IMG/VR virus record: IMGVR_UViG_3300042301_006228
Location: 1 to 33,560 of that record
From: a virus
DNA length: 33,560 bases
Strand: one strand, 5' to 3'
This document shows positions 3,353 through 26,853 of the stretch, in pieces. The notes beneath the pieces were generated by a model. It saw only the letters and a program-made list of their open reading frames with translations, was not told the DNA's origin and ran no database searches. Position numbers and translations under genes: made by a program. The stretch's first letter is position 1. Every line of letters begins with the position of its first letter.

Positions 3353-3786
3353 CAGCCGGCCACCGAATCGTTGAGCACCAGGGCCAGCACCGCCAAGTTG
3401 GCGGTGTGGGCGCCAGCCACCTCGGTGCGCAACCGTGCCCAGAGCCGCTGCTGCAGGGGGCTCTCTCCGTTGCTGTAGCTGCTGCCCGGCGCCAGCTTGA
3501 GGGTCGGCGTTGCAGCTGAGAAGCGCAGATCGACCAGCACACCGGCAGAGGGCGGTGGATCCTCCCCGATCGGCCTGGCTGCATCGGCCGTACGCGCCGC
3601 CATGGAGTCGTAGAAGGTCACCCAGGCCGCCGCCGTGCAGCTCACCTCCAGAAAAAGGCCATCGACACCAAGGGCCGCAAAGCTCAGGTCCACCGCCGAG
3701 GGGCCATTCAGGGGCCCACTGCTCTGCTGCTCCAGGGCCCGACGGGGCGTGTCGATGCGGGGCACCCAGCGGGGAGTGGCGGTCAT
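3352..3786 (-). CDS. Small phage structural protein of unknown function
   Basis: A 144-residue protein. It begins [21 protein letters not shown] and ends in a helical segment (QQRLWARLRTEVAGAHTANL). Its start codon overlaps the stop of the collagen-like gene by one base, and its own stop overlaps the start of the next gene the same way, so three genes in a row are translationally coupled. The middle section (VDGLFLEVSCTAAAWVTFYDS, LVDLRFSAATPTLKLAPGSSY) reads as a small beta domain typical of fibre-associated virion proteins. No catalytic motif is seen. A role in fibre assembly or attachment is inferred from the neighbours only. Confidence 0.45.
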   Translation of the reverse strand: MTATPRWVPRIDTPRRALEQQSSGPLNGPSAVDLSFAALGVDGLFLEVSCTAAAWVTFYDSMAARTADAARPIGEDPPPSAGVLVDLRFSAATPTLKLAPGSSYSNGESPLQQRLWARLRTEVAGAHTANLAVLALVLNDSVAG

Positions 3787-5048
3787 CAGGGGATCACCTG
3801 GATCTTGCGGATCGCCCGCACCGTCTGGGCGATCGTCTTACCCAGCGGATCCCAGTTGCCATAGAACCAGTCCTGCACCTGGTGGGTGGTGGCCGAGTCC
3901 TGGGTGGAGGTGCCCATGCCGCCGGCAAAAAAGGCCTGGGCCGCCCCATCAACAAACAAGGGGAAGGCGGTTTGGGCAGGCACCGAAAGGGTGTAGTTGG
4001 CAGTGGCTGGCACCGCATAGGGGTTGGCGCCATGACTGGTGCCGTTGCCCTCGCTGCCATCCGGCTTGAAGCGCCGGTAGAGGATCTCCAGCTCGAACAG
4101 CGCCGGGATGTACCAATCCGAGAAGGTGGCGATGGTGAGTCCCCTTGCCCACTGGGTGGCCGGGTGTGCTGCGTCGTTGGCGGCGTTGCTGTTCGCCCAG
4201 CCGTCAAAAGTGCTCGATGCCCCGGTGGTCGCGGTGTTGCTTGTTTTGCAGGCCCGGCTGCTCTGGCCCGTGGCCTTGGGCGCAATGATCAGGGCGTGGG
4301 TGGCCACCCCATTCATGCTCTGGGAGATCAGCCCGCCGTAGTAGCCGCCTTCATAGGCCGCCCCAATCGCCGGCAGGCTGGCGACTGGCGTGCCGCTGGC
4401 CGCGACATTCAGTTTGTAGACGTCGCCGTTGCTTTGATCGAGGTACAGATCCCCCGTGAGCTGGCCGGGGATCGAGACCGGCGGCGGGCCGCTGCCCACG
4501 AACCAGCTCGTGCCCCGCACACCCTGGACTCCGGCACCGCCGGTGGCGCCGACTGGCCCCTGGATGCCCTGCGGTCCAGCAACACCAGTGCTGCCTGCAG
4601 GTCCAGCGGGTCCGGTGGGGCCAGCGGGTCCCACTCCGCCGGTCGGCCCTGCCGGGCCAGCGGGGCCTGAGATCGGACCCGCATTGATCCAGGTACTGGT
4701 CGATGCGTTCCAGCTGTAGAGGCTGTTGTTCTCGTTTTGAACCAGGTAGGCATCGCCTTGCTGCCGGTTCGCAGTCGGCAGGGCGGCGAAGTTGGCCACA
4801 CTGCCCTTGAGGTTGATACCGGTGCCGGCGGTGCCCTGAGGGCCAGCAGGACCCTGGGGGCCCGCTGCTCCCGCACTGCCGGCTGGGCCGGTGGCACCTG
4901 CCGGCCCCTGGCTACCGGCCGGACCAGGCGAACCCTGGGGACCCGCATTTCCCTGACTGCCAGTCGGGCCTGCAGGGCCGCTGGGGCCAGTCGGTCCAGG
5001 CACACCTTGCGGACCGCGGATCGAGCCGGTGTTCGCCCAGGAGGTCAT
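3786..5048 (-). CDS. Collagen-like tail fibre protein
   Basis: A 420-residue protein with two blocks of Gly-X-Y triplets, near residues 12-75 and 128-180 (for example [17 protein letters not shown]). They are separated by a non-collagen linker with a [17 protein letters not shown] motif. After the second block comes [15 protein letters not shown], a short module also found at the C-terminus of the protein at 7475-8266. The last ~230 residues form a globular head with [17 protein letters not shown], resembling a DUF1566-like (Lcl) fold. Collagen triplets in phage proteins form trimeric fibre shafts, so this is likely a tail or head fibre with a C-terminal binding head. The N-terminus MTSW plus GPQG matches the small protein at 7152-7370. 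A 12-codon leader ORF overlaps the start (ATGA at 5045-5048). Confidence 0.8.
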
Positions 5049-5083
5049 CTACGCAGCAGGTCGTTGTCACGAGCTATTGCCAT
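5045..5083 (-). CDS. 12-codon leader ORF in front of the collagen-like fibre gene
   Basis: ATG at 5083 opens a frame reading [12 protein letters not shown]. Its TGA overlaps the ATG of the fibre gene by three bases (ATGA). The same length, the same first three residues (MAI) and the same overlap occur in front of the other MTSW gene at 7370. It may be a translated leader used for coupling or attenuation. It could also be a by-product of the conserved motif TGGCAATAG, which contains the start of the frame. Confidence 0.35.
5074..5082 (-). promoter_or_regulatory. Phage motif TGGCAATAG upstream of the collagen-like fibre gene
   Basis: Minus-strand TGGCAATAG, extended to ATCAATGGCAATAG in common with the copy at 7396-7404. 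Its downstream edge lies 26 bases from the fibre start, the same distance as at the other collagen-like gene. It is one of five such sites in front of phage structural genes. It does not resemble a sigma70 -10 box, so a phage-specific transcription or translation signal is inferred. Confidence 0.5.
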
Positions 5084-5222
5084 TGATGATTCCGGGCCGC
5101 CAGCAATGCGGCCGCGACGGGGCCACCAGCTACTGAACAGGCTCCGCTCCGGCCCTTTTCATGGTCGGGGGGCGCCTCAAGGGTGATACGAGCCCGCCGC
5201 TGGGGTGTTCGGCTGCGCTGCG

Positions 5223-5240
5223 CTCCACACTTCTGTGGAG
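5223..5240. repeat. Perfect 7-bp stem-loop
   Basis: CTCCACA and TGTGGAG enclose a 4-base loop in the gap upstream of the small plus-strand gene at 5296. No T-run follows on either strand, so a terminator is unlikely. It could be a binding site or an RNA hairpin in the leader of the plus-strand gene. Confidence 0.3.
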
Positions 5241-5295
5241 GACGGGCCCTTGACCCGCCCCCCGCCGGCAGAGAGGTCCTACGCAAAGCCTTCCC

Positions 5296-5481
5296 ATGGC
5301 TTCTCTGTCCCGCAAAGCCCGCCTGCAGCGTTATTCCTGGCCGTTGCTGGAGGGGCTGGCGTTCTGCAACGAGCGCTATCCCCGGCTTTCTGAGCTGGCG
5401 GCCCAGGTGCTGTTTGAGCAGCAGGCAGCCCGGCCGCAGGCACCGGTTGTCCCGGCGTTGGAGGCACTCATCCCCTTCTGA
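5296..5481 (+). CDS. Small plus-strand gene (moron-like), function unknown
   Basis: A 61-residue protein, MASLSRKARLQRYSWPLLEG at the start, with a basic N-terminal half and an Ala/Pro-rich tail. It runs opposite to the surrounding phage late genes, in a 1-kb gap between two of them. A strong intrinsic terminator begins five bases after its stop codon, which is the best evidence that it is a transcribed gene. A good Shine-Dalgarno sequence is not visible, and the start is chosen as the first ATG giving a compact protein. Independent transcription units of this kind in late operons are often morons. The function is not recognised. Confidence 0.5.
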   Translation: MASLSRKARLQRYSWPLLEGLAFCNERYPRLSELAAQVLFEQQAARPQAPVVPALEALIPF

Positions 5482-5486
5482 GTTCA

Positions 5487-5533
5487 GCCCCCAGGCGGGG
5501 CCCCAGAGGGGGGCCTGGGGGCCTTCTTTTTTT
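5487..5533 (+). terminator. Rho-independent terminator after the 61-residue gene
   Basis: A perfect 10-bp GC stem (GCCCCCAGGC at 5487-5496 with GCCTGGGGGC at 5513-5522) is followed by a T-rich tract with a seven-T run to 5533. It is oriented to end plus-strand transcription. Confidence 0.85.
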
Positions 5534-5704
5534 GGTCGCGGGACGCCAGACGCTTTGCTGGGCAGCGGGACATGCTGCGCTACAGGCTGGGGCCGGAGCC
5601 ATCACAGTCGGCGAGGGGGAGAGCTGCACCGCTGCCCCGGCTGTCTCGCCCCGGTGGGTCGCTACAGCCGAGACCTGACGCGGGTGTTCCTCGCCTCTTT
5701 TGTG

Positions 5705-5917
5705 ATGGCCTCCTCTTTCCCATGCTGCGAAATCCGCCAACTGGTGGTGCATGTCTATCCCACTGGCAGCAAGGCGGGCGCTGCAGAGCGCATCACCGTC
5801 TTCTATGGCCGCCGTGGCAGGCCGGTTAAAAAGCCCCGTTTCATCCCTGCTGAGCTGGCCCATCAGTGGGCGCGCAAGCTGCAGGCCCGGCGCCTCGGCA
5901 CCGTCTCGGTGCTCTGA
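5705..5917 (+). CDS. Small basic plus-strand gene, function unknown
   Basis: A 70-residue basic protein starting MASSFPCCEIRQLVVHVYP, followed by TVFYGRRGRPVKKPRF and a helix (AELAHQWARKLQARRLG). The alternation of strands and a basic helix would suit nucleic-acid binding, but no known fold is recognised. The frame is open far upstream (to 5183), so an earlier start is possible. ATG 5705 is chosen because the sequence before it, which overlaps the preceding terminator, reads as noise. A hairpin resembling a terminator lies 18 bases after the stop. Like the gene at 5296 it opposes the phage late genes and may be an independently expressed accessory gene. Confidence 0.45.
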   Translation: MASSFPCCEIRQLVVHVYPTGSKAGAAERITVFYGRRGRPVKKPRFIPAELAHQWARKLQARRLGTVSVL

Positions 5918-5935
5918 GGCTCGGGGGCTCTGGCT

Positions 5936-5970
5936 AAGCCCCGGCGGGTGTGCGGCTCGCCGGGGCTTTC
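5936..5970 (+). terminator. Terminator-like hairpin after the 70-residue gene
   Basis: AAGCCCCGGCG (5936-5946) pairs perfectly with CGCCGGGGCTT (5958-5968) around an 11-base loop. Only three T residues follow on the plus strand. It is probably an intrinsic terminator, weaker than the one at 5487. Confidence 0.6.
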
Positions 5971-6084
5971 CCGACTGACGCTGTGAGCAACGCGCTCCAA
6001 GCAGTGCAAGTACTACGTAGTTGTCGTCAGCCCCGTCCTAACTGTGCTGTTCTGCTATTGGTCTTGGCCCTCGGACCCTGCCCA

Positions 6085-6330
6085 TCAAGCCAGCACCCAG
6101 GCACTACCGCTCCAGAAGCGAAGCGGTTTGGGGATCCAGCTACTGCCGGTCCAGACCTTGACGCTGATCGGCTGAAAGCCGCGATCGATGCCGAGGTAGG
6201 TCATCACGGCGCCGGGGCTGGACGCCCTCAAGCCGTAGAACTCGTCGCTGATGATCAGCCCAGCGAGGCCCTGGTCCCAGTTGTCCATACCGCCGTCGAA
6301 CGGCTGGATTGGGGCCTGGCGTCTGCGCAT
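6085..6330 (-). CDS. Small phage tail-associated protein with C-terminal Trp/Gly/Ser repeats
   Basis: An 81-residue protein ending in two copies of a WxGSxW-type unit (VKVWTGSSWIPKP, LRFWSGSAWVLA). Repeats of this kind are common at the C-termini of small phage tail and minor structural proteins. The start ATG at 6330 lies three bases after the stop of the upstream gene, so the two are co-translated. It is the last gene of the upstream block before the 1-kb gap holding the plus-strand genes. Confidence 0.55.
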   Translation of the reverse strand: MRRRQAPIQPFDGGMDNWDQGLAGLIISDEFYGLRASSPGAVMTYLGIDRGFQPISVKVWTGSSWIPKPLRFWSGSAWVLA

Positions 6331-6333
6331 GGC

Positions 6334-7152
6334 TCAACCGACTGCCAGCTTGAGCAGGCCCCGCACCGCGCCGGTGCTGGTGGTTGAGCAGAACATCAGC
6401 AGGGAGAGGCAGGCGTCATTGGGCACCACTGGCAAACCCAAACCGGCCCAGTCGCGGATTTCGCTCTTGTTGGCCACCATCGTGGTGGTGCCAGTCAAAA
6501 AGCGGGTGCAGGTCACTCCAAAGGACCCGGCGGTGCCGGTGCTGGCGCTCAGCGTGAGGCTGTTTACAGCTTTGATGCCTGTTTTGCCGGTGGCAGGCAG
6601 GATCGGATAGAGGCCAGAAGCGCGGCTGGTGGCCGCCAGGGCTATCACCACATCACCGGTGGTGTTATCGGCATAGGTCAGGTTCAGCGTGGCGTTGACG
6701 CCCGTGGCGCCGGTGTCGGTGTACCACTCCAGCCACCAGGTGAGCTCGGAGAGATCCGTTGGGCCGATCCGATCGATGGAAACGCCGGTGAGATTGAGCG
6801 GCAGGTTGGTGGTTTGTGCCGTGGGAGAAGCAACAGTGCCGGAAAGGCCGCCCTGGTGGCAAAGCCGGTCATGGACGCTGAGGTTGGTGGCGCTGTTGGC
6901 CGTCGCCAGCTCCAGCCAGGCCAGATAGGTGGCTACTGGCGCGGTTTGGTTGGTGAGCGGCAATGCTCCGGTGGTGGCCCTGGTGCAGACCGCCGCTGTG
7001 GTGGGGATGGCGCCCTGGCCGGGCACACCGGTTGCGCACCAGAGCGAATGGAAGCGGCCGGCCACGGTGTTGCTGAGGCTGGCCTTGTCGATCAGGGCGT
7101 TGCGCGAGAGCGTCAGCGCTGCAATCAGCTGGTCGCGGCTTGTGATCGCCAT
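6334..7152 (-). CDS. Phage virion protein, function unknown
   Basis: A 272-residue protein. An N-terminal helical segment (ITSRDQLIAALTLSRNALID, residues 2-21) is followed by a beta-rich body with a WWLEWYTDTGATG motif near residue 140 and many Thr/Ala/Gly strands. No signal peptide or enzyme motif is visible. Its ATG overlaps the TGA of the 72-residue gene upstream by one base. The make-up fits a virion decoration, tail or neck protein. The family is not recognised, and the role is inferred from its place between capsid and fibre genes. Confidence 0.5.
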   Translation of the reverse strand: MAITSRDQLIAALTLSRNALIDKASLSNTVAGRFHSLWCATGVPGQGAIPTTAAVCTRATTGALPLTNQTAPVATYLAWLELATANSATNLSVHDRLCHQGGLSGTVASPTAQTTNLPLNLTGVSIDRIGPTDLSELTWWLEWYTDTGATGVNATLNLTYADNTTGDVVIALAATSRASGLYPILPATGKTGIKAVNSLTLSASTGTAGSFGVTCTRFLTGTTTMVANKSEIRDWAGLGLPVVPNDACLSLLMFCSTTSTGAVRGLLKLAVG

Positions 7153-7370
7153 CAGTTGGTGTCCACCCAGAGGTCATGGAGCTGGGGATTGGTCGGCGCC
7201 GTTGGGCCAACGGTCAACCTGGTGGCGTTGAGCTTGAGGTTGAGCTCCTGCTGCAGGTCGGCTTGGGCGCTCAAGGTGCCGGTGATGCCACCCCAAACAC
7301 TGGGCCCAGTGGGTCCAGGCAGACCCTGGGGTCCCTTCAGTGACAGCCCGAGGGCGCCCCAAGACGTCAT
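7152..7370 (-). CDS. Short collagen-like N-terminus protein, paralogue of the fibre shaft start
   Basis: A 72-residue protein, MTSWGALGLSLKGPQGLPG followed by PTGP. The first ~25 residues match the N-terminus of the collagen-like fibre at 3786-5048 (MTSW, then GPQG and GPTGPS). It then has a helical stretch (ADLQQELNLKLNATRL) and ends in VGPTAPTNPQLHDLWVDTN, a common end of fibre attachment modules. ATG 7370 is preferred over the ATG nine bases upstream, because GGAG is well placed and the paralogue starts the same way. A 12-codon leader overlaps the start. It may be an adaptor sharing the attachment segment of the fibre, or a fibre gene that has lost its distal part. Confidence 0.6.
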   Translation of the reverse strand: MTSWGALGLSLKGPQGLPGPTGPSVWGGITGTLSAQADLQQELNLKLNATRLTVGPTAPTNPQLHDLWVDTN

Positions 7371-7405
7371 CCACTCCACCAGTAGTTCACGCCTTCTATT
7401 GCCAT
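7367..7405 (-). CDS. 12-codon leader ORF in front of the short collagen-like gene
   Basis: ATG at 7405 reads MAIEGVNYWWSG, and its TGA overlaps the ATG at 7370 (ATGA). Length, MAI start and overlap are identical to the leader at 5045-5083 although the rest of the peptide differs. That points to conserved geometry rather than conserved peptide sequence. Confidence 0.35.
   Translation of the reverse strand: MAIEGVNYWWSG
7396..7404 (-). promoter_or_regulatory. Phage motif TGGCAATAG upstream of the short collagen-like gene
   Basis: Second copy of the extended motif ATCAATGGCAATAG. Its downstream edge lies 26 bases from the start at 7370, and GTGA follows six bases further on. Spacing to the start codon is identical to the site at 5074. 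Confidence 0.5.
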
Positions 7406-7430
7406 TGATTGCTGCAGTCCACCAACGCGG

Positions 7431-7474
7431 GCCTGGCTCTGGCCCTGGCCCTGGTTCTGGCCTTGGCCCTGGCC
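7431..7474. repeat. Degenerate hexanucleotide tandem repeat (CTGGCC)n
   Basis: About seven degenerate CTGGCC-type units directly follow the stop codon of the PKD-like gene. In the frame of that gene they read Gly-Gln repeats (GQGQGQNQGQGQSQ) on the minus strand, continuing open through the leader ORF until the TGA at 7367. Slippage in this tract or read-through of the TGA would lengthen the upstream protein. Confidence 0.55.
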
Positions 7475-8266
7475 TCAGACGATCAGTTCGAACACCTGGC
7501 CGTTGGTCCGGTTCAAGTACAGATCGCCCGGCGCCGGTGGTGGGTTGAGCCCCTCGCTCGGTGGTGGCCCATCGCCCGCATACCAGCGGGTGCCGCGGCT
7601 GGCAGCGCCTGAGCCGTTCATCACCACCAGCGCCGGCTTGCCATCAACCGGCGAGGGCAGCAGCGCCAGGCCGCCCTGGGGGTGGAGGCGCAGCCGCCAG
7701 AGCTCGGCGCGACTGCCGTTGTAGGCCAGGCCATCGAGGCCGTCGCTGGGCACCAGCGGCTCCACACCTGCCAGGCTGCCGCCACCTGCGCCACTGGCGC
7801 CGCCAGACGGGGAACTCGGGATCATGTTGGGCGGCAGGGGGCAACCCAGCAGCGCCACCGGCAACGTGGCGATGTTCACCCCCATCGTCACCGACACGAT
7901 CAGGTCCAGCCGCTGCCCATAGACGTGCCGCACCTTGGGCACATCGGGCCGGTAGGGCGTCCAGGGCACGGTTTCGCTGGTGCCATCGCCCCAATCCACC
8001 TGGAAGCCCTGGGCCGGCAGCCCCAGCGGGTTCACCGCCAGCTCGATCGGCGCTGAACCCAGTGGATCATTCCAGCGGCTTGGTGCCGGCATCCAGAACA
8101 ACTCCAGCGGCAGGGCCGGCACTGGCCCCAGCCGATAGCTCAACTCCAGCCAGCGCGGTGCTTCATGGGCGAGCACCCACTCCTCGCTGCCGGGGCAGCC
8201 CAGCGGCGGGATGATCCGCAGCCGCCCGTTGGTGTTATCGACGCCAGTGGGCAGCGGGTACGGCAT
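7475..8266 (-). CDS. Phage structural protein with PKD-like domain and fibre-attachment C-terminus
   Basis: A 263-residue protein. Residues ~75-125 contain DWGDGTSE followed by VRHVYG, the signature of a PKD/Ig-like fold used in surface adhesion. A Gly/Ser linker (SGGASGAGGGS) near residue 155 precedes a module that ends GDLYLNRTNGQVFELIV. Its last part is the same unit as [15 protein letters not shown] in the collagen-like fibre. It is probably a tail or head appendage protein. The gene sits between the head genes and the fibre genes, 15 bases after its upstream neighbour. Tandem repeats directly after the stop keep the frame open. Confidence 0.6.
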   Translation of the reverse strand: MPYPLPTGVDNTNGRLRIIPPLGCPGSEEWVLAHEAPRWLELSYRLGPVPALPLELFWMPAPSRWNDPLGSAPIELAVNPLGLPAQGFQVDWGDGTSETVPWTPYRPDVPKVRHVYGQRLDLIVSVTMGVNIATLPVALLGCPLPPNMIPSSPSGGASGAGGGSLAGVEPLVPSDGLDGLAYNGSRAELWRLRLHPQGGLALLPSPVDGKPALVVMNGSGAASRGTRWYAGDGPPPSEGLNPPPAPGDLYLNRTNGQVFELIV

Positions 8267-8281
8267 GGCGGTGCTGGTGGA

Positions 8282-8896
8282 TCAGCCCAGCAGATCCAAA
8301 GGCAGGGCCGGGTGATCTTCCTGGGAGTCAGGTTCCGCCTCGGCAGGCAAGCCACCGGCGGTTAGCCGCTCTGCGGTCAGCCGCTCTACGGCCAGCCGGT
8401 CGGCCTCGGCCACCAGCTCCGCTTTGGTCATGCCCCCATCCAGCGCCAGGCCGTAGCGGCGCTCCACCTCGGCGATGATCTGGGCCTTGGTCATGGCGCC
8501 GTAATCAGGCAGTTGCTCACCAGGCTGCGGCTCATCAGGCCCCGGCTGGCCGGTTTCCACCAGGGGCTGGTCGTTGTGGTTCTGCTCAATCACCGCCGTG
8601 CCAGGGGCAGACGGATGCAGCAGGGGGCCAACATCGGTGGGCACAAGGCTGGGGAGATAGGCCTGCCAGCCCAGGGCCACCCAGCCATCGATATGGCAGG
8701 GGAAGCAGAACTCGGTCTGATCACCCTTGCTGAGGCGGACCATCCCCTCGGGGGCCGCCAGGTTCAGCAGGGAATCGGCAGCGGTGTTTGGCATCGGCAG
8801 CGTCGAAGCAGGGACGTGGGTCAGGGGGTGGGGTGGCGCCCCGGGAGAGCCGGGTTCGGTGGGCCGTTCCAGTTGGCCATCAGTGGAGTTGCTCAT
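8282..8896 (-). CDS. Phage structural protein with Rho-N/SAP-like repeats near the C-terminus
   Basis: A 204-residue acidic protein. A Pro-rich N-terminus is followed by a small domain (EFCFPCHIDGWVALGWQAYL). Two short related helical repeats follow near residues 134-168 (MTKAQIIAEVERRYG, MTKAELVAEADRL), resembling the small helix pairs of Rho-N or SAP-type domains. After them a 15-base DNA repeat encodes AVERL/TAERL/TAGGL. Small proteins of this type just downstream of the capsid gene often serve as head-completion or head-tail joining proteins. That role is inferred from position. Start ATG 8896 is five bases from the end of the upstream gene. Confidence 0.5.
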   Translation of the reverse strand: MSNSTDGQLERPTEPGSPGAPPHPLTHVPASTLPMPNTAADSLLNLAAPEGMVRLSKGDQTEFCFPCHIDGWVALGWQAYLPSLVPTDVGPLLHPSAPGTAVIEQNHNDQPLVETGQPGPDEPQPGEQLPDYGAMTKAQIIAEVERRYGLALDGGMTKAELVAEADRLAVERLTAERLTAGGLPAEAEPDSQEDHPALPLDLLG

Positions 8897-8900
8897 CGGC

Positions 8901-9326
8901 TCAGGCGCGGCTGAGGCTGACGTGGGCGCCAGTTGGCGTCGATGGCGTCAGGGTTGCCCGGGCAAAGAAGAAGCAGGGATCGACCACATTGGCCAGATCA
9001 CCGGCGGCGGGCACCAGGGAATCACCGCTGATCGTTGCTTCCACCTGGCCGCCAGCGGCGGGGATCGCCACGGTGGCGGCCGTCACCCAGGTGCCGGTGG
9101 TGCCGTCCTTGAGCAAGGGCGCCACTTGCAGCACCGCTGTCACCGCAGCAGCGGCTCCGGGGTGGGAGAAGAGCAGGGTGAAGTGCTCAGTGCTATCGAG
9201 CGGCACGCTCAAGCGCACAATCTCAGCACTGGCGCGGGTGCGCTCGAACGGATCGGAGGCGCTGTTGTTGATCCAGCCCACCAGCGTGGTGGCGGCATCA
9301 ATCAGCTTGTTGCCGGTAGCGGTCAT
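8901..9326 (-). CDS. Probable capsid decoration or head-completion protein
   Basis: A 141-residue protein, the first gene after the major capsid protein. It begins MTATGNKLIDAATTLVGWIN and is otherwise a beta-rich domain, with ASAEIVRLSVPLDSTEHF and TVAIPAAGGQVEATISGDS. No membrane segment or enzyme motif is seen. In many tailed phages the gene after the capsid gene encodes a decoration or stabilising protein, so this is the leading guess. The family is not recognised. The gap of 48 bases to the capsid gene is the longest within this part of the operon. Confidence 0.5.
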   Translation of the reverse strand: MTATGNKLIDAATTLVGWINNSASDPFERTRASAEIVRLSVPLDSTEHFTLLFSHPGAAAAVTAVLQVAPLLKDGTTGTWVTAATVAIPAAGGQVEATISGDSLVPAAGDLANVVDPCFFFARATLTPSTPTGAHVSLSRA

Positions 9327-10476: not shown

Positions 10477-10773
10477 ATGTCTCTTTGGCTCGATTCACAC
10501 TCCCAGGGGGATCCCATCGCCCTCGTCCATTCCAGCCACCAGGCGCTCAGCCGGCTGCTGAGCACGCACCGGGGCAAGCCAATCCGCCGCCTCTGGATTG
10601 ATCATCCCTATGGAGAAGAGGAAATCACCCTGCTGGAGGAAGAGTTGATCCCGGCCATGGGGGAGTTCCTGGCCCGCATCCAAGAAATTGATGCGGTGCT
10701 GGAGGCCGCCCAGGCAACAGAGATTGAGCGGGTCCAGGCCGCCAGGGCAATAGAGCCACTGCCGGCAGTTTGA
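10477..10773 (+). CDS. Small plus-strand gene upstream of the capsid gene, function unknown
   Basis: A 98-residue protein, MSLWLDSHSQGDPIALVHSS at the start, then KPIRRLWIDHPYGEEEITLLEE and a long amphipathic helix (FLARIQEIDAVLEAAQATEIE). The start ATG 10477 is preceded by CCAGG at suitable spacing. A perfect 10-bp GC hairpin follows eight bases after the stop. The gene is divergent from the capsid gene and lies in the scar between capsid and brxL, so it is either a moron of the phage or part of what came with BREX. No family is recognised. Confidence 0.5.
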   Translation: MSLWLDSHSQGDPIALVHSSHQALSRLLSTHRGKPIRRLWIDHPYGEEEITLLEEELIPAMGEFLARIQEIDAVLEAAQATEIERVQAARAIEPLPAV

Positions 10774-10808: not shown

Positions 10809-11181
10809 GCACCGCTTGCCAGCGGCGGCTGTGGCCTGGCAATGGAAGGTGGACAAACGCAGCAGATCCATACCCGCCACCATGATTCGCGCCAGGTCGA
10901 TGAAGGCCCCGGCCCAGGTCGCCCGGGTTCACGCCAAACCCCGCACCGGCGTCTGGCCCCAGTAAGTGGTCGGCGCGCCGGGTGTTGCCTTCTCCGTCGC
11001 CATGGCCCCCTCGCGGGGCAGCTTCGATCGGAAGGTGAGCAAAGCAACCCCGTCGCGACGGTCAGAGGTGCGGCGCAGCGGTGGGTGGAGCAGCGGTGAA
11101 CTGGCCAGCGAGGTCTGAGCAGCTTGGGAGGGAGGCGCGTTTGGGCTGTCTGATGGACGCCCCAGAGCTACAGAGTAGATC
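10809..11181. other. Non-coding scar between the capsid side and the ArdC remnant
   Basis: I see no intact gene here. One minus-strand frame reads weakly protein-like around 10830-10930 (WAGAFIDLARIMVAGMDLL), ends in a Gly/Arg-rich tail and is preceded in frame by a TGA. It may be a relic, but no family is recognised. This may be where the right or left end of an incoming segment was degraded. Confidence 0.3.
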
Positions 11182-11573
11182 GTGTATTTCTTTATCATAT
11201 TTGTAGAGGCTGCAGCAGCCGTGCTGGGTGCCTGGCTGGTGCGTGTCAACTTTGGCGGGTATCGGGCTTACTACATGCCCGGTATCGATCAGATCCAACT
11301 GCCGGATCGCGACAGCTTCCACTCACTCGCTGCGTTCTGCGCCAACTGGGCCCATGGGCAGATCCACTCAACTGCCATGAATCGCGGCTCATGCGGAATC
11401 CTTGTGGTGCCTTCGGGTACTCGTCGCATAAGGCGCTGGTCGGGGAATTAGAATGTGATTCTGCTAGGTTATTGGCTGGTATTCGTTAGACTAAATAAGA
11501 GCAATGTGGCCTATCTAAGCGACTGGATCGAGCAGCTCAAGGAATCGCTCTGGCTGCTGGCCTGTGCCGGTTA
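11182..11573 (+). pseudogene. Remnant of an ArdC-type antirestriction/zincin-like metallopeptidase gene
   Basis: Three pieces in successive frames match the C-terminal metallopeptidase domain of ArdC-type proteins. First, from about 11206, EAAAAVLGAWLV and AYYMPGIDQIQLPDRDSF. Then HGQIH with HSTAMNR, where the zincin HExxH has lost its catalytic Glu. After a frameshift near 11385-11395 comes RLMRNPCGAFGYSSHKALVG, matching the R-L-x-R, FG and E-L-V-A-E region. Finally, from 11503, NVAYLSDWIEQLKES matches the family's NHAAYxxxWxxxLKxS segment. ArdC proteins bind DNA and protect incoming elements from restriction. No N-terminal DNA-binding domain was seen upstream. Stops and frameshifts make this clearly non-functional. 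Confidence 0.7.
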
Positions 11574-11736: not shown

Positions 11737-13761
11737 TCAATTCATATCCAGCGCCTTGAAGGTAGCCGTCTTTACATCGTTGTAAAAGATCGGGTCAATC
11801 TTGTCGATCACATCAGTGCTCACTTCCAGGAAACTCCGCTTGTTCTCAGCAGGGATCAGTGCACAACGGGCGCCGTTGTCCATCGCGACTTGAAGCGGCT
11901 CCACCAAGGAGCGGGCGGCCTTGATGTTGCCCTGGATGCTCATGTCGCCGATCACCAGCATGCCGGCGCGGGCCGGGGCTCGACGAATGGCGGAGAATGC
12001 CGCGATGAAGAAAGCAACCCCCACCTCGGCACCAACCTTATTACCGAGCAGGTCGATGGCCTCCACGTTGTAGTCGTAGCTCTCGGCTTCATGGCCGATA
12101 GAGAAGGCGTGCTTGTTGGCCTGAAGGTAAGCAAAGGCCCTTGTAATCGACTCCTTCATCGCCCCATTGATGCCACCAGCAGGCTTGAGCTTGCCGTTCC
12201 CTGAGGCGATCGACACCTCCAGTCGGTAGAGCCCCACAGTGCCATCGCCGGTGACGGAGGTGGCATAAACCGAGCCGGGGGCCATGGGCTCTGCCGCAAT
12301 CAGATCCTGGCCTCCCTGCTCAGGCACGCCCACGAAGTGCTCCTCACCCGTCTCATTATCGGAATAGCTGAAGGAGGTCTGACTGTACTCGAAAGATCCC
12401 ATCTTCTTGAGTTGTTCCTTGACGCGACGCCTGCCCTCGATCGCCAGCTTGAGGATCTCCTCCAGGTCTTCCTTGGAAGGTGCTCCGTGAGGATGGATGA
12501 TCTTGACCAGGCCCGACACCGTGCGCCGAACAGCCTTTCGATCGCGAGCATTGAGATGGGTACCCATGGCGAAGTAGGTGTCGCACAGCTCGGTGTAGTT
12601 GAGTTTGCGCAGATCCCGCAGCGCCTCAGCGAGATAGTCGATCACGAAGCCATAGTGGTCGGTGAAGAACTCATTACGCATCTTGGGGATTTCCCAGCCC
12701 GGCAAGTAGCAATGCAGGCGATCGATGAAGGCCATGTCATCACGGATCACATCGGGCATTGGTGTAAACAGATGGCCTGTCTGCACCATCACGTCGATGG
12801 GCTGTTGGGTGTTGCCAAACATGGCGATGCTGGCATCACCGGCGAAGCTCTCGGCACCACGCTGAAATTGCCCGGATTCGCAGTAAGTCTTCATGGTGGT
12901 GATGACCTCCTTGGGCATTTTCTGTAGGTCAGCCACCTCGTCGAAGCCGACCACATCCCAGATCGACACCATTCCCTTCACCTTGCCGTTCATGTGCCCA
13001 AAGAGGTTGGCCACGGTGGTGGGCCCAGTGAGCAAAGCTGCATAGGGGGAGAGCTCCTGCACGGCAAAGCTCTTGCCGGTGCCGCGAGGGCCCAGCTCCA
13101 CCAAGTTGTAGTTGCGTTCGCAGAGCGGAATCAGACGCAGCAGAAACAACAGCTTGAGCCGCTGGCTCATCTCTGAGGGCTCATAGCCGATCGAGCGGAT
13201 CAGCAGATCGATCCACTCGTCGGTGCTGAACTGAGTGCGCAGCTTCCGGTACTCCTCCAGGTTGAAGGTGGCCAGCTGGATCGGTTTGAGCTGGCTGATC
13301 GAGAAAGGTGCCTTGCTGTCGGTTTCGTCCCACTCCACTTCCACCTGGGCCCATACCCCGCCGGTAAGCAGCCGCTCGAAAGCATGGACGTCCTCATCGG
13401 AGATGCGAAGGTTGCTGCTGCCGAAGTTGACGCACTCGGCCACGTAAGTGGAGCCGGTGAGGCGTACCTTCACCTTGTCGATGAAGGTGTAGCGCCCTTT
13501 CTGCTTCACCTTGCTCTGGGCCTTGGTGGCCTCGTCAGGGCGGATGTAGTTGTTGGCGAGGGTGTCACGCACCACCGCCAGACCCAGCTCAATGGCGGTG
13601 GAGTCGGAGGAGGCGCAGTACTTGCCGAGTAGGTACTCAAGAACAAAAACCGGAACGTTGGCGCCCACCTTCACCGAGCGCACCAGGTCCTTGCGGACGC
13701 ACTTGCCCGCAAAAATCTGGTTGACCTTGTCGTCGAGACTGTCGCGGGGGGGGGTGGTCAT
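11737..13761 (-). CDS. brxL: BREX protein BrxL, Lon-like AAA+ ATPase
   Basis: A 674-residue protein with the BrxL layout: an N-terminal domain (residues 1-200), an AAA+ domain with Walker A GPRGTGKS (224-231) and Walker B VVGFDEVA (270-277), and a C-terminal Lon-protease-like domain (~490-660, AIDLLGNKVGAEVGVAFFIA and MLVIGDMSIQGNI). The typical Lon Ser motif PKDGPSAG is not visible; the matching place reads GNKVGAEVG. BrxL is required for phage restriction in type 1 BREX and forms DNA-binding rings. It starts 13 bases after pglZ and ends the operon. Codons 3-6 contain a run of nine C residues (13746-13754), a possible slippage switch. It is the type 1 hallmark gene. Confidence 0.93.
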   Translation of the reverse strand: MTTPPRDSLDDKVNQIFAGKCVRKDLVRSVKVGANVPVFVLEYLLGKYCASSDSTAIELGLAVVRDTLANNYIRPDEATKAQSKVKQKGRYTFIDKVKVRLTGSTYVAECVNFGSSNLRISDEDVHAFERLLTGGVWAQVEVEWDETDSKAPFSISQLKPIQLATFNLEEYRKLRTQFSTDEWIDLLIRSIGYEPSEMSQRLKLLFLLRLIPLCERNYNLVELGPRGTGKSFAVQELSPYAALLTGPTTVANLFGHMNGKVKGMVSIWDVVGFDEVADLQKMPKEVITTMKTYCESGQFQRGAESFAGDASIAMFGNTQQPIDVMVQTGHLFTPMPDVIRDDMAFIDRLHCYLPGWEIPKMRNEFFTDHYGFVIDYLAEALRDLRKLNYTELCDTYFAMGTHLNARDRKAVRRTVSGLVKIIHPHGAPSKEDLEEILKLAIEGRRRVKEQLKKMGSFEYSQTSFSYSDNETGEEHFVGVPEQGGQDLIAAEPMAPGSVYATSVTGDGTVGLYRLEVSIASGNGKLKPAGGINGAMKESITRAFAYLQANKHAFSIGHEAESYDYNVEAIDLLGNKVGAEVGVAFFIAAFSAIRRAPARAGMLVIGDMSIQGNIKAARSLVEPLQVAMDNGARCALIPAENKRSFLEVSTDVIDKIDPIFYNDVKTATFKALDMN

Positions 13762-13774: not shown

Positions 13775-16411
13775 TCAGGCGATCAGATCGACGGCGATGG
13801 CCTTGGTCTCTAGCAGCACCACATCGGTGTTGGCATCGCGCAGCTCCAAGCGGAGCTTCCTGGCACTGACCTCGGCGGGCAGCATCAGCCCAACGGAGGC
13901 CCGGACGCCAGCCGTCAAGGTGATGCGGTTGGTGTCCCGGTCGAACTCGGCCTGCAGGGCCTGGATCGGGGTGGCGACGAGGCCACCGGTGTTGACGTCA
14001 TAGGCACCCAGCAAAACGTCCTTGGTCGCACCCTGATTGAGAAGGCCTGAGGCAAGCTCCACCTTCACCATCAGAATGCGATTGGTGATCTTTTCAGGAA
14101 CCTGCCAGACCAGGTCGTCCAGCCCCTTGGGGTTGGAAGCGACGGGAGCGCAGCGGAAGCTCAGCACGGGAATCAACAGCTCCTGCAGGCTGGCGCCCCC
14201 ATGGTGGAAGCAGAGGCTGCCGCCCGCTTTGAGCACGCCTGTGGAGCGGGGTACCACGGTGGTGAGCCCATCGGCGCCGTATCCCAACGCTTCCGGCGGG
14301 ATCGCCACACAGGGATCGGGCGTTGTTGCGGGATGGCCGACCCAACAACGGCGGTGGAGATCGAACTCCTTGCCTGCCGGGCTTGTGATCCTCATCTCCA
14401 TGGGCTTGGGCTCACCATGGAGATAGCCATGGTCGGCGGTGATCACGATGCGCTCGATCGAATGAGTCAAGGAAAGGCCGGCCAGCTTACGCACCACCGC
14501 CTGAATCGTGTCGATCTCCCGCTGCATGTCACCACGGACATTGGCCAGGTTCTCTCCGTCTTTCTCACCAGCAAAATCAATCCCCTGGCTGGTGATCACT
14601 ACGGGAGCGGAATGAGCGAGCTTTTCAGCCAGGGTGGCGGGCTTGGCCTTCATCGCCTCGAACAGGGAAAGCACCGTGACCTTGGGCACCCGCTGTTGCA
14701 GGTGGGCCAGCCGCTTGGCCTTGTCGGACCAGCCCACGGGGACCTCATCTACGATCGATACAGGTTTGCCACCCTTGGCCACTACGGCAAACGAGCGTTC
14801 GGCCCCTGGCAGCAGGGCTGCCATTCCGACCTCTGTGATGGTGGGAAGGGCTGCCTGGGCTGGCTCAAGGCGCAGGTCGCTGATGCCTTCGTTTTGCAGG
14901 GCCAGAAACCTGCGTTCGAGGGTCACTCCCATCTCAAAACGAAGCGCATCGACCCAGAACACCGCTACACGGCCACGACCCTTCTGCACCCGTTCCGCCC
15001 AGATCTGTTGTTGGGGCAAGAGCTCCGGCACCGACCAGCCAGCCGCCGCCAGCGCGGCAGTGAAGCGAGTGGTTTGCGCCTCCAACTGCTTGTCGTAGCG
15101 CTGGCGCAGCTGCGCAAGTCCTTGGGGAATCTCGCAGTCGTCTGGGGCCAGCTCGCCCACCTGCTGCTCAAGCTTGCGCTGCAAGCGATCAACCTCTTGG
15201 CCCCTGTCCACGTAATCCTGCGCCAACTCCTGAGCCCCGGTTTGCGCGGAGAGCGGATGGGCTGCGGCGTTCTCCAAGGCAATCCCGAGGCGAGCGGCCC
15301 ATTCCGCCACGGCCCACTGGGCGCGGCGCTTGATCTGGCGCTCATCGGCCTGGGCGCCCCTCAGCCAGAAACTCTGCTGGCGTTCGAGGATCAGCTGTTG
15401 AGCCTTGGCGTACTGCCGATCAGCCAGAAACTGATCGACGCTGCGCAACAGGAAGCGTTCCTCACAGGGGAATGTGTCGATGGCGCCGAGCACCCCGGGC
15501 CTTTCCCTGGCGATGCGATCTTGCACCTGCAGCTCAGCCTCGATGGCGGCGGCGATGGCGGCGTAGGGGCCAGGATGGTCACGGCGCAGGCCGCGGACGT
15601 CCTCCAGGGACTGGGCGATCGGTTCTTTCCCCAGCGGCAAGGGCTGGGCCTTGAATGCCAACAACTCGTCGCCGCGCCAATCGGTGAGGAACTCATGCAA
15701 GAGCAGGCTGCGCTGGCAGCGATGGCGCCATTGAGCCAGGGAACCAGCGGGAGGCAGGGCGAGGCCCCAGCGGCTCTTGAGTAGTTCGGCCAGCTCCGCC
15801 TCCAGCCCCTTGGTGGCGATGGCGGCATCGCATTGATCGGAGACCAGCCAGAGCCGCACGACATCGCTGTTCTCCGGGAGCGCCCCACGGGGTTGTTGAA
15901 ACAGCCCCTTGAGCTGGCTGAAGCCTCCACCGGCGGACTGCTCCAGGGCTTGGGCGATCTCGCGGTAGGTGAGGCCAGGGCGAGCGAGGAACTCCCGCAC
16001 CTTGGCCGGCTCCATCACGGCCTGCAGAGCGCGGCGTGAACGGTTGGCCAGCTGGGGCTTGAAGACGGCACCGGCTCGGATCAACTCCATCAGCACCGCT
16101 TCGGCTCCGGGCTGCTCATGCTGGGGCAGGTAGATCAGCAACGGCTCTGGGCGCTCGGCGGCCACGAACGGCTCCAAGGCCAACCGCAGCTGGAACAGGC
16201 TCGGCCCCGCCAGGGCCCAGTGCACCGCCATGTCGCCCAGCTCGATGGTGCCGAAGCCACCCGGCTCAGGTGCCTCCGTGGCCACCTCATCGAGGAAAGG
16301 CCGAAGTTCGGCGGCAGGATCAAAAATGAGCACCACGCGCCGGTCGCGCAGCTCTTTGGCCAGGCCAGTTGCCAGCAGTTGAAACAGCTTGTTGGGAGCA
16401 GGCACCGGCAT
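13775..16411 (-). CDS. pglZ: BREX phosphatase-fold protein PglZ
   Basis: An 878-residue protein typical of type 1 PglZ. It has an N-terminal domain, a coiled-coil-like middle (residues ~390-450), and an alkaline-phosphatase-like core. The core shows VFWVDALRFEM (484-494, metal-binding Asp/Glu), PTITEVGM (523-530, position of the nucleophile Thr), VVITSQGID (604-612) and ITADHGYLHG (657-666, metal-binding Asp and His). PglZ proteins associate with the PglX methylation complex and are needed for BREX methylation and defence. No Shine-Dalgarno sequence precedes ATG 16411. The 113-base gap upstream holds three inverted repeats, so pglZ-brxL may have its own control. Confidence 0.93.
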   Translation of the reverse strand: MPVPAPNKLFQLLATGLAKELRDRRVVLIFDPAAELRPFLDEVATEAPEPGGFGTIELGDMAVHWALAGPSLFQLRLALEPFVAAERPEPLLIYLPQHEQPGAEAVLMELIRAGAVFKPQLANRSRRALQAVMEPAKVREFLARPGLTYREIAQALEQSAGGGFSQLKGLFQQPRGALPENSDVVRLWLVSDQCDAAIATKGLEAELAELLKSRWGLALPPAGSLAQWRHRCQRSLLLHEFLTDWRGDELLAFKAQPLPLGKEPIAQSLEDVRGLRRDHPGPYAAIAAAIEAELQVQDRIARERPGVLGAIDTFPCEERFLLRSVDQFLADRQYAKAQQLILERQQSFWLRGAQADERQIKRRAQWAVAEWAARLGIALENAAAHPLSAQTGAQELAQDYVDRGQEVDRLQRKLEQQVGELAPDDCEIPQGLAQLRQRYDKQLEAQTTRFTAALAAAGWSVPELLPQQQIWAERVQKGRGRVAVFWVDALRFEMGVTLERRFLALQNEGISDLRLEPAQAALPTITEVGMAALLPGAERSFAVVAKGGKPVSIVDEVPVGWSDKAKRLAHLQQRVPKVTVLSLFEAMKAKPATLAEKLAHSAPVVITSQGIDFAGEKDGENLANVRGDMQREIDTIQAVVRKLAGLSLTHSIERIVITADHGYLHGEPKPMEMRITSPAGKEFDLHRRCWVGHPATTPDPCVAIPPEALGYGADGLTTVVPRSTGVLKAGGSLCFHHGGASLQELLIPVLSFRCAPVASNPKGLDDLVWQVPEKITNRILMVKVELASGLLNQGATKDVLLGAYDVNTGGLVATPIQALQAEFDRDTNRITLTAGVRASVGLMLPAEVSARKLRLELRDANTDVVLLETKAIAVDLIA

Positions 16412-16428: not shown

Positions 16429-16526
16429 TGCGGATCAGCATCCGCACGGCTGGGGACCAGGAAGCGGCCGTTACGCGCAGATTACGAGGATGCGCGTAAA
16501 GATACGAGCACGCTTGAAAAGTGCTC
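16429..16526. promoter_or_regulatory. Cluster of three inverted repeats upstream of pglZ
   Basis: Three repeats fill the gap before pglZ. TGCGGAT-CAGC-ATCCGCA spans 16429-16446 (7-bp arms). TTACGCGCA at 16471-16479 pairs with TGCGCGTAA at 16491-16499 (9-bp arms, 11 apart). GAGCAC at 16506-16511 pairs with GTGCTC at 16521-16526, touching the stop codon of the upstream gene. No T-runs follow, so they look more like operators or RNA hairpins than terminators. The double winged-helix protein encoded just upstream is a natural candidate to bind them. Confidence 0.55.
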
Positions 16527-18198
16527 ATATGCTCGGCCCCGGGCGATAGACCCGGCCCTTCCCCTGCCCTTCTGGGATCAAGTCCCCCCGCCTGCTGAGC
16601 CTCTGGAGGGCATGGGTGGCCTGGTTTTTCTCCAGCCCGATCGCCTGCAGCACATCTCGCCGACGCAGCTGCCGGGTTACGCGGGCTAGGGCAAGAATCC
16701 GCTGGTCGATCTCCTCTGAACTGAGCACGGCCTGACGGGCATAGCCGGCCTCCTGATCGAAGGCCCGGTAAACCGGCTGGGAGAGGGTGTAACTGCGGCC
16801 CCGGCCCTGGCTTTGTGCCGCCACCAGATCGGCCTCCACCAGCTGCTCCAGATGGCGACGGACGACGGCTTCATCACGGTGGAGCTGGGCGGCCAATTGG
16901 GCGGTGGTGAGCCGGCGCTGCTCGTGCAGGGTGTGGAGCAGCAACAAGCTGAGCAGGCCCAGCGGCTCTCCAGCCCGGCGCTGATGCTGATACCAGAGAG
17001 CTACCAGCGGCAGATTGGCCGGTTGGGTGCTGAGCTCCACCACTACGTCATCGAGGCTGGAGCGCCCGTAGTTAGGTGCAGCGCGGCCACTTTCGAGCAT
17101 GCCTTCGTAAATCCGGTCGATGCCCCGGCCGGTGCGCTCGGCCAGCCCGATTCGCTTGAGGGCATCTGCGAGCACGGGATTGCGGGAGCGGGGCGGGCTG
17201 GAGAGCAGGGTGTCGATGGTGACGCCCCGCACGAATCCACCGGGATTGCTGATCACCAGCTGCTCGACCAGCTGCCAGGTCACATGGACCGCAGCTAGGC
17301 GGGTGTAGTCGCGGTGGGCGAGGGCATTGATGAAGGCTTCGCGGAAGGCCCGCTTCTTGAGATTCGGCACCGGCACACGAAACAGACCCACCTCCAGCTC
17401 CTGTTCGGAGATGAAGGGATCAATGCGCTGCTCCACCTCTTCCACCAGGGCGAGGAGCGGGGAGCGCAGAAAGCGGTTGATGCGCACCTCAGTGCCTTGA
17501 AGCACCTGAAAAGCGCATTCATGGCCGGGGATGCAGCGGCGAATGGCGGCGGCATAGCCGATCAGCAGCAGCCCGGCGAAGGTGGGTTGGAGGGTTCCCT
17601 GGGAATCAGGCACCACCAGCGCAAGCGCCCCATCGAGCTCGTCGTCGCTCAGCTCCAGGAGGGTTTCATCACCGCGGTAGGTGCGAACCATGGCCCGCAA
17701 TCGCTGCCGCTCGGCTGGATCCAGATCGGCATGGTTGGCGGCAGGCACGGGTTGGGCCGACCAGTCGACTTCGAGCTGCTGGTTGGCACGCCGCAACACA
17801 TCCACCGCGGTGGCGGGCCGACAGAAGGGTTTGCCTTTCTGATCGAGGCCGCGGATCTGGCACCGGCCATCGCGGGTGAACACCGTGCCTTGGATGGCCG
17901 GCACCTGGATCTGCAGCACAGGCTGGCCCTGCAGCGTGAGCGGCTCGACGGTGACCCCCAAGGGAGGTGTGGTGAACTCACCGATCACAGCAGCGAGGTT
18001 CCGGGTGCGATCGCGGCTGGGATGGAGGCCAGTAACAGCACCGTTGTCTTCCACGCCCAGATAGAGATCACCCCCGTGCGCATTGGCTAAGCAGACGGCC
18101 GCCAGCGCCAGGTCGCGATCGGAGAGCTGCACCTTGCGGTCGCCCTTGAACTCCACCGTAAAGGTTTCGGCCGGAGGGATCTGGGGCTCCTCCGCCAT
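16525..18198 (-). CDS. Schlafen-type AlbA_2 / HATPase_c_4 protein with C-terminal winged helices, inside BREX
   Basis: A 557-residue protein. Residues 10-140 form an AlbA_2 (Schlafen-like) domain: VEFKGD, AVCLANAHGGDLYLGVEDNG, ITGL-like VTGLHPSRD. Residues ~285-375 match the C-terminal HATPase_c_4 domain (REAFINALAHRDY, ISNPGGF, SRNPVLADAL, ERTGRGIDRI). Two winged-helix segments follow (~415-475 and ~495-557). Such COG2865-type proteins are predicted DNA/RNA-binding regulators, and AlbA_2 domains also occur in defence proteins. ATG 18198 overlaps the pglX stop (TGATG), so the gene is translationally coupled to the methyltransferase. The open frame extends to 18702 but that part overlaps pglX and reads as noise. 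Regulator of BREX or an added effector: undecided. Confidence 0.85.
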   Translation of the reverse strand: MAEEPQIPPAETFTVEFKGDRKVQLSDRDLALAAVCLANAHGGDLYLGVEDNGAVTGLHPSRDRTRNLAAVIGEFTTPPLGVTVEPLTLQGQPVLQIQVPAIQGTVFTRDGRCQIRGLDQKGKPFCRPATAVDVLRRANQQLEVDWSAQPVPAANHADLDPAERQRLRAMVRTYRGDETLLELSDDELDGALALVVPDSQGTLQPTFAGLLLIGYAAAIRRCIPGHECAFQVLQGTEVRINRFLRSPLLALVEEVEQRIDPFISEQELEVGLFRVPVPNLKKRAFREAFINALAHRDYTRLAAVHVTWQLVEQLVISNPGGFVRGVTIDTLLSSPPRSRNPVLADALKRIGLAERTGRGIDRIYEGMLESGRAAPNYGRSSLDDVVVELSTQPANLPLVALWYQHQRRAGEPLGLLSLLLLHTLHEQRRLTTAQLAAQLHRDEAVVRRHLEQLVEADLVAAQSQGRGRSYTLSQPVYRAFDQEAGYARQAVLSSEEIDQRILALARVTRQLRRRDVLQAIGLEKNQATHALQRLSRRGDLIPEGQGKGRVYRPGPSI

Positions 18199-21100
18199 CA
18201 GTCCATGTCCCCCTCGGCTTCCGCGGCGGCCAGGCCAGCGGGGGAGAGCCGGTAACGAGCGCCGCGCTTCTGGCCCAGCTGCTCGATCTGGCCGCTCTCC
18301 TTGAGCTGCTTGATCGCCGCGGTGAGCTCGGCCTCCTCGGTGGCATGAAGCACAGCGATAGTCGCCTTGGCCATGCCTTCGGGGGGGGCAGCGGTGAGCA
18401 CGAGCCGCACCTGACGGATCAGCGCCGGATCCAGGGTTTGCGGAGTGCGGCGAGCCAGGCTGGTGCCGGAAGAAGCGGACTGTGCGGACCGTGGAGCGCG
18501 GGCGCGGGTTGCGGCCAGCGGGGGTGGTGCTGCGAGAAAGCGCTTCAGAGCATCGCTTCTGGCATGGTTCGTGTGAGCCGCGACCACCTGGGCCAGGTGC
18601 TCCTCGCTGAGGGGGACGGGTTCCCATTTGCCCTGCCGGTTTTCGCGCCAGAAGGTGGCATCGAGGCCATGGGCGATGGCCAGGCTGAGGTCGGTGGCAC
18701 ATTTGGGGATCACCCGCTCGGGCCAGAGGTGAAACGCCAGGTGGGCCCAGTCGTATTCCTCAGCAACGAGCTTGTCCCAGCACTCCTTCACCTTCTTCTG
18801 CCAGGGGGCATAGGGGGTGAGCCGCCAGAGGATGGCGTGGTTGATGATCACGCCATCGTTGAGATCCGGGTTCCAGAGGGGAGCTACCAGGCTGAGTTCG
18901 GCCTTGAGCTGGTTGAGATCATCCAGCAGCGCCTGGGTGCATTGAAGCTGCTGGGCCGCATCGGTGGTTCCACCCGATGCCAGTTGCTGCTTCCACTCGA
19001 AATAATCTCGATCAGCCTGGGAGATGCGTGGTTCCACGTACTCCTGCAGCACTCGATAGAGCGTGTCTGCGGTGAAGCGGTGATAGTAGAGCCACACTGT
19101 ATATCTGCCACTGCCGGTAGAGAGCGGCCAGTAGACCGGGGCCTGGCGGCGGCTCTTGGAGTAGCGCTTAAGGTGATCGGCGAAGAAGCTGGTTGGGTTG
19201 CGAAAATAGTCACGGAGTGACAGCACGCCGAGCAATTTGCACGTCTCTAGCGCCAGCTCCTCAGCATGGTCATCCAACAGCAAAGTAAGGGCAGCATGTA
19301 CGCGGCGTTCAAAATCCAGTGGGTGATCTTGGTCGTCCACGAGGATTCCATCCCAGGAAACATCAATTGGATAGAGCCCCTCTCTAAACAAACTGCGTAC
19401 TTCTTGTGGCCCGAGAGGTAGACCATCGCAATCTTGAAGCATACCGGGTGGACTTATCGGCAACGGCGCAAAGGGGTCCGGCAAAGATGGCGCCTGCAAC
19501 TTGCCAGTTCCATAACGGATATCCCAGCGGCCAAATGCACATCCAGCAGCGTAGGAAAGAGCAGCCAGTATTCGCGATTCAGGTGTGTCTACAATGACTA
19601 AATCTTCGTCGTTGTCTTCTTCATCGGAAAAATCCAATGGGATAGAAGAACTTTGAAACTCGATCGCCTCTCGAAGGTCTCGAAAAAAGGGATCATCCTC
19701 GTGATGGGTTACACCGTATTCCCTCGCTATAGCTGCATCAAGCTCAGAGCCTAAAAGCGTCTCTACTGCGTAAGTCAGCGCCGAAGAGTTGATATTTTGT
19801 CGAAATGCAGCTGGTGCGATAAATTCTTGGAATGGCTCTTGTGCTGTATATGCAATTCTTCGATTAGTGATTTCTTGTGTCGATTGTCTTCTGAGCCGGC
19901 ATGAGACCTCGTCAGAAAGTGTTATCCATGGTAGAGACTTGAGGTGCTCCACGAGAAAGTTAGGACGGCAAAACCACTCTCCATAAAATCTCAGTATCGC
20001 AGAGACAGCATTAGATGCTGTCAAACCCATTGCATCCAATACTGCTCCCCGCGACGGATACGCCATATATCTGCTGCCGCTAGGAATACAGCCCTGGGGA
20101 ATTATGTAGGGGACGAAGCGAACGGCACGGCGAGTCCAGCTAAATCCTGGACGAAAATAGTAGTCCATCGCACGTGGTCGTGATCGTGGCTTGCCCTTGT
20201 TGTCAAAGAAATTACGTAATTCCATCCCATTATTAGCCCAGTTTACGACAATCGTTAAAGGTGAAAACCAAGGCTGGGACGAACCACGCATGACATACGG
20301 GAACCCGCGCGCTGATATTCGATCAACATTTCCAGAGGTCTCTATAGCCGAGGTAGGCACTTCCCAAAAAAGCCGGACGTAACGATCTGCGTCTCCGGTG
20401 ACCAAGCCCTGCCTTGCTTCAGCTTCATGCGGGACAAATTTCTGGAGATGCTCGAGTTTTCTAATTAAAGAATCTGGAACCCAGTAAGCCAGTGGATTAT
20501 TTCGTAGTCGCGCGAAACTATTGATGCTAACTGAAAAAAGACGATTAGAGAATCTGCCTATATTGTGCTCCGAAACGGCTTTGTGGAGGGAAGCTTTGCG
20601 GTCGGCAAGCCCTAGAAAGCGAAAGAATGGAGCCCAGCTGTTGTTAGGAAGCCGTGTCAAGATGTAAGCCGCAGACTCAACCGTCGCTGCGTCCATAACC
20701 TGATCACCTAGATCAGCAAGTAGGGCGGGATTGCTATTTGCAACAAGAAACTCCTGTCTCCACGGATGGAGAGATGGCAGAAAGAAGCCTGTACGACTTG
20801 TGATCGCTCCAAGCAATCTATTATAGGCAAGACAGGAATGCAGGCGCACAGTAAAAGCCGCCAAAATATCCTGCCAGGAATTAGGATACCAAATACGTTT
20901 CTCGACTTTCAGGCGCTTAGAAAACTCGCCAAACGGCGGATTCATCACTACGGCGTCGTAGCGTTTGCGGCACAGGTCAATGAACGCGAAGCCCTGTGCA
21001 GCATCACCTGCAAAGAGGCGTCTCTTAAACCCTCCGCCGTTTTCAGCCTGCTCTGCGTAAGTTTGAAGCGCCTCGTAAATCCGCTGCTCGGCCCTCTCCC

Positions 21101-26851: not shown

Positions 26852-26853
26852 CG

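Follow-up and report, generated by a model that had tools for sequence, protein, structure and literature searches.

An ardC pseudogene beside a BREX operon in a probable temperate-phage-like element of the Synechococcus family

The DNA analysed here, an IMG/VR virus contig of 33,560 bases (the window), carries the remains of an ArdC-type antirestriction gene between a phage capsid gene and a BREX operon. In our judgment these remains are very probably the 3′ half of a now dead ardC gene, once part of a temperate-phage-like element of the Synechococcus family, an element with a slot for variable cargo that is occupied in this instance by BREX. A first-pass annotation, made from the letters of the window, had described a decayed ArdC-type gene adjoining brxL; the profile match, the DNA identity and the lesions confirm that description, and its interpretation is partly supported.

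Results

A six-frame reading of 10790-11750 resolves the remnant into three + strand fragments, in order and in shifted frames (Table 1), much as the first-pass annotation had them. The unaltered single-frame ORF at 11182-11451 (+) alone matches the MPTase-PolyVal family PF18818 (E 1.3e-8; 35.4 bits, above the curated cut-off of 27.5 bits), and the three fragments joined, with X placed at the frame breaks, match positions 2-115 of the 126 in that profile at E 8.7e-14; fragments 2 and 3 taken singly give no significant PF18818 match. The likeness to zincin-like metallopeptidases is thus significant. At the DNA level, 11206-11559 shares 74-81% identity with intact ardC genes of other Synechococcus-family genomes, and fragment 3 is 82% identical to a remnant in L004. 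Chance similarity to ardC was considered and is excluded by this DNA homology together with the common gene order. In a tree that includes the remnant, its branch is long and its placement unsure, the nearest rows being ardC genes of the slot described below. On the evidence of sequence, its derivation from ArdC is confirmed, and it reads as a pseudogene, no working member of the family.

Table 1. Positions of the features of the window, with strand and the evidence for each
Feature	Position	Strand	Evidence
Phage head/tail genes	3786..9326	-	family matches; syntenic in relatives
Collagen-like tail fibre	3786-5048	-	among head/tail genes
Major capsid protein, left phage flank	9375..10301	-	Pfam GP7 2.3e-15, PHROG 212 5.9e-55, NCBIfam 2.4e-47
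Small conserved gene of the element (LWIDHPYGEEEITLLEEE protein), regularly found 5′ of ardC	10495..10773	+	synteny/alignment in relatives
Conserved leader, just 5′ of ardC in relatives	10810..11164	+	79-85% identity to L149, L156, L180, L131, L120
Deletion scar, ~590 bp of L149 missing	11164..11206	+	alignment to L149, L156, L180
ardC remnant fragment 1, MPTase domain start to HGQIHST	11206..11372	+	PF18818 and DNA identity
Active-site motif changed to HGQIH (nearest intact genes, L097/L120: HEQIH)	11353..11367	+	translation
ardC remnant fragment 2, shifted frame	11373..11486	+	translation, joined profile match, alignments
ardC remnant fragment 3, NVAYLSDWIEQLKES..., C-terminal helices, stop at end	11500..11571	+	translation, joined profile match
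brxL	11737..13761	-	PADLOC 5.9e-279
pglZ	13775..16411	-	family matches
AlbA_2/HATPase/wHTH protein within BREX operon	16525..18198	-	family match
pglX	18198..22709	-	family match
brxC	22721..26257	-	family matches
brxB	26261..26863	-	family match
brxA	26854..27822	-	family matches
brxE-family gene, first of cargo operon	27819..28523	-	NCBIfam BrxE_fam 3.3e-32
Scaffold-like gene, right phage flank (name inferred from position)	28851..29879	-	homologues between portal and capsid genes
Portal-like protein (DUF4055)	31424..33166	-	family match; homologues in 46/201 genomes

Homology to the intact genes of L149, L156 and L180 starts again at 11206, after a leader that ends at 11164. What is missing between these points corresponds to ardC codons 1 to about 179, that is, to the entire ssDNA-binding ArdcN half of the protein, and alignment to intact relatives shows the ArdcN domain (PF08401) to be absent from the window copy. 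An intact relative, L131, has ArdcN at residues 33-117 (PF08401, E 2.4e-18) and MPTase at 181-301. This loss of about 590 bp is large, which corrects the first-pass annotation. At least two frameshifts break up what is left, so that no single reading frame spans it; one of them is a 1-base deletion relative to intact ardC just after HGQIH, which shifts fragment 2. The change from HExxH to HGQIH was correctly recognised at the outset, and within fragment 2 the metal-ligand glutamates (EE of YAREEL, equivalent to E228/E229 of R388 ArdC in the numbering of PMC7213743) are replaced as well; the copy therefore lacks the combination of HExxH and a second metal-ligand glutamate that characterises ArdC.

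The same wreck lies at the same place in a second species, in L067 (G001, Synechococcaceae RE-18aug17-136), in a segment ~95% identical to the window. Substitutions between the two at codon positions 1/2/3 number 6/6/2 in the remnant, 2/0/21 in the capsid gene and 3/3/23 in brxL, and the contrast of the remnant with the other two genes is strong (Fisher p 1.7e-6). Since a third-position excess is found in capsid and brxL and not in the remnant, the remnant drifts, whereas capsid and brxL are under selection, which for the window capsid gene is purifying. The ardC gene of this lineage is dead, and the copy shows that selection can keep acting on capsid and BREX genes even where the antirestriction gene has been lost. 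An independent contig from G001, and the same order in other species, rule out a chimeric contig.

The BREX cargo occupies about 11.7-28.5 kb, with its edges at 11574-11719 and 28376-28600. Phage homology resumes at about 28600, to the right of the cargo, and this flank has a LysM protein in addition to the scaffold-like and DUF4055 portal-like genes. A target-site repeat search found no direct repeats >15 bp at the slot edges. PglZ, the BrxC/PglY core and the PglX methylase are all present. Like BREX type 1 and type 6, the operon has BrxA, BrxB, BrxC, PglX and PglZ; it ends in BrxL as type 1 does, and it shares the BrxE family with type 6, the best NCBIfam match of its PglZ being BREX-6, below the cut-off of that model. 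It differs from both types in combining BrxE with BrxL and in having an AlbA/HATPase protein between pglX and pglZ, and no brxD or brxHI was seen in it. By gene content it would be classed as a mixed BREX type, with a BrxE-family gene first, brxL last and a PglZ nearest the BREX-6 model. The AlbA_2/HATPase/wHTH homologue is placed elsewhere in related BREX operons, for example between pglZ and brxL in L008.

We surveyed 201 Synechococcus-family genomes, many of them metagenome-assembled. One gene order is common to three loci (the window, G151 and G179). It runs capsid <, lysis >, small conserved gene >, (toxin-antitoxin), ardC >, cargo and then, on the right side, scaffold-like <, LysM <, small gene <, portal < (arrowheads give direction); the window has lost its lysis genes. 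As cargo, the window has BREX, G151 has DISARM (DrmA, B, C, D), G179 has type III R-M, and G093 has a DruE-like protein with a DrmD-like helicase. Four kinds of cargo thus lie between the same capsid and scaffold-like genes, as in a hotspot. Two loci, G204 and L007, have no cargo and only ~3-4 kb between these genes; judged by gene positions across the family, the distance is mostly 1-5 kb, and 13-68 kb when the slot is clearly filled. In G094, tens of kilobases of other genes come after BREX, and with a cargo of about 60 kb a packageable phage is doubtful in that genome. A slot with ArdC and defence cargo runs from end to end only in the window/G001, G151, G179, G094 and G093; the others end at contig ends. 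There is also a second position for ardC, at the tail end of this cluster. Three filled slots (G034, G073, G083) are without ArdC and carry efflux-like genes. The set in those loci (L227, L228, L229) is near-identical, includes a 1043-aa transporter and, read from sequence, has a metal-efflux look.

Among IMG/VR contigs with the same capsid family, found with an alignment query, intact ArdC is present in L277-L280 and BREX genes in L248 and L251; a scan of viral contigs with BrxL alone gave one distant match, and with the window capsid alone none. A recurrent set of 1047-aa, 207-aa and ~1000-aa genes, which resembles an ATPase-methylase-helicase defence set, occurs near the same phage genes in L220/L233 (G196), L243, L266 and L268.

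BrxL is found in 20 of the 201 genomes and an ArdC domain in 60. Pairs of the two within 20 kb number 6, against 0.85 expected (p 2.5e-4), in a test that is post hoc and treats genomes that are not independent. ArdC is present in 16/20 genomes with BrxL (vs 60/201), a genome-level co-occurrence that we set aside as evidence, since genome size is a possible confounder. The first-pass annotation had proposed looking for intact ardC next to BREX loci, and such genes exist: in G094 (L131) one lies just ahead of brxA, in G146 (L130) one is opposite the brxL end, and in G093 (L182) one precedes another BREX. Remnants of ardC adjoin brxL or brxA in G003, G002 and G109, and the DISARM genes drmC-drmB-drmA adjoin ardC in seven loci.

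The closest relatives of the window ardC are in a prophage-like element with the same capsid and tail genes as the window. The best relative in a phage record is 48% identical; plasmid homologues, among the matches listed, are only about 33-39% identical, and a plasmid DNA search with the window locus gave no match. No relaxase or type IV secretion protein is among the window proteins with family matches, the window being a partial contig.

Discussion

We propose that the element is temperate-phage-like, with a capsid related to that of P-SS2, and that ardC would be one of its resident genes: the last gene of its own before the cargo, at the edge of a variable slot between the capsid and the scaffold/portal genes, and pointing away from the capsid gene. 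The N-terminal domain of R388 ArdC binds ssDNA, plasmid DNA with ArdC escapes host HsdRMS, and the protease site is dispensable (PMC7213743). By analogy, intact ArdC might bind the DNA of the element on entry and hinder host restriction until the element is established, and the cargo, here BREX, might then defend the lysogen against other phages, provided that the element acts as a phage. In this lineage a deletion took the DNA-binding half of ArdC, frameshifts and the loss of active-site residues came before or after it in an order that we can only infer, and what is left drifts neutrally; selection still acts on the capsid and BREX genes. The change of HExxH as the key lesion is not supported; since R388 ArdC needs no protease site for antirestriction, the loss of ArdcN outweighs it, and would abolish DNA shielding whatever the state of HExxH.

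The intact relatives resemble R388 ArdC (PDB 6sna/6i89; PMC7213743) in having both ArdcN and MPTase, and align with it mostly full-length at E about 2e-39; the window copy differs from it in being without ArdcN and frameshifted, and in its setting, a phage-like element where R388 is a conjugative plasmid. The slot recalls the hotspots of P2 phages and P4 satellites, where two conserved phage genes likewise enclose defence genes that vary; those measure about 1-5 kb (PMC9122126). Here, in contrast, the slot measures 17 to ~60 kb, lies in the head-gene cluster with ardC at its edge and holds whole BREX or DISARM systems. Relic prophages of the P-SS2 kind have been described in Synechococcus, and that phage has a prophage and genomic-island link (PMC2784084); its capsid protein is related to that of the window, at only about 39% identity, and the part of PMC2784084 at hand describes no such defence slot. 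Nor is one described in the few open-access papers found on BREX, prophages and cyanobacteria, judged by titles and abstracts and, for one paper, by passages of its text. Prophage defence hotspots are already known; a slot of 17-60 kb inside a head-gene cluster, edged by ardC, looks like a new version of them.

The first-pass annotation had BREX arrive on, or joined to, a mobile element with ardC, a gene of the kind that travels with conjugative elements, and had ardC discarded later when the defence was kept. ArdC is indeed typical of conjugative plasmids (PMC5512222) and adjoins BREX in several genomes. Carriage on a mobile element stands, in a prophage-like form; the conjugative part has no support, given relatives with phage capsid and tail genes. 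None of the identified genes was recognised as a conjugation gene, and in the collections searched the nearest intact ardC is in a phage-like element, not a conjugative one. The same ardC place is found beside DISARM, type III R-M and DruE-like cargo, which argues against ardC having come with BREX, and intact ardC persists beside BREX genes in three other genomes (G094, G093, G146), so that disposal once defence was kept does not follow. We regard the conjugative origin as quite improbable. As intact ardC beside intact-looking BREX shows the two to be compatible, the loss in the window needs no special cause. Even less likely is an accidental meeting of unrelated ardC and BREX in a generally mobile region; ArdC is common enough (60/201 genomes) to invite the idea, but both the common order alongside the same phage genes and the BrxL-ArdC proximity test speak against it. 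Equally improbable is a remnant that still acts, for instance as a short protease-dead ArdC fragment or in antisense control of brxL. Fragment 1 is 97.6% identical between the window and L067, but the adjacent non-coding stretch is about as well conserved (95%), the third-position excess is absent, and frameshifts, stops and the loss of the DNA-binding domain stand against it.

A further possibility, which we consider unlikely though less so than the foregoing, is that ardC is a preferred break or insertion point for cargo exchange, its wreck being collateral damage. In G002 an S8 peptidase/AAA pair interrupts an ardC at GHESRLN (L120), and the 3′ part of an ardC lies between a recombinase-like ORF and brxL (L121); over window 11719-16099, brxL is ~92% and pglZ only 66% identical in DNA to L003/L121, a contrast that suggests a recombination breakpoint between them. 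However, the cargo of G151, G179 and G094 lies beyond the end of ardC, outside the gene, and the slot edges of the window are without long direct repeats. This idea is compatible with a resident ardC of a phage-like element and would add a cause for its loss.

A broader suggestion, which we put forward tentatively and hold rather short of probable, is that one family of temperate cyanophages carries large, exchangeable BREX, DISARM or R-M systems in the head-gene cluster beside its own ArdC, which would mark, and perhaps enable, the slot. A single element would then combine antirestriction at entry with a set of defences that serves the lysogen. ArdcN is reported as typical for conjugative elements and seldom met in phages (PMC5512222); here it recurs, in a single cyanobacterial prophage-like family, next to complete defence systems. 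The family thus offers a system for asking whether mobile elements pair antirestriction with defence cargo, by what route 17-60 kb of cargo can be swapped within a block of structural genes, and how BREX and DISARM have come to spread among picocyanobacteria.

Two details of the G002 loci may be added. The recombinase-like ORF next to the ardC 3′ part and brxL (L121 1-777) was named by eye, from inspection, as it has no Pfam or NCBIfam match. The convergent S8 peptidase and AAA ATPase pair that cuts ardC (L120 2113-6471) is likely to be a defence module itself.
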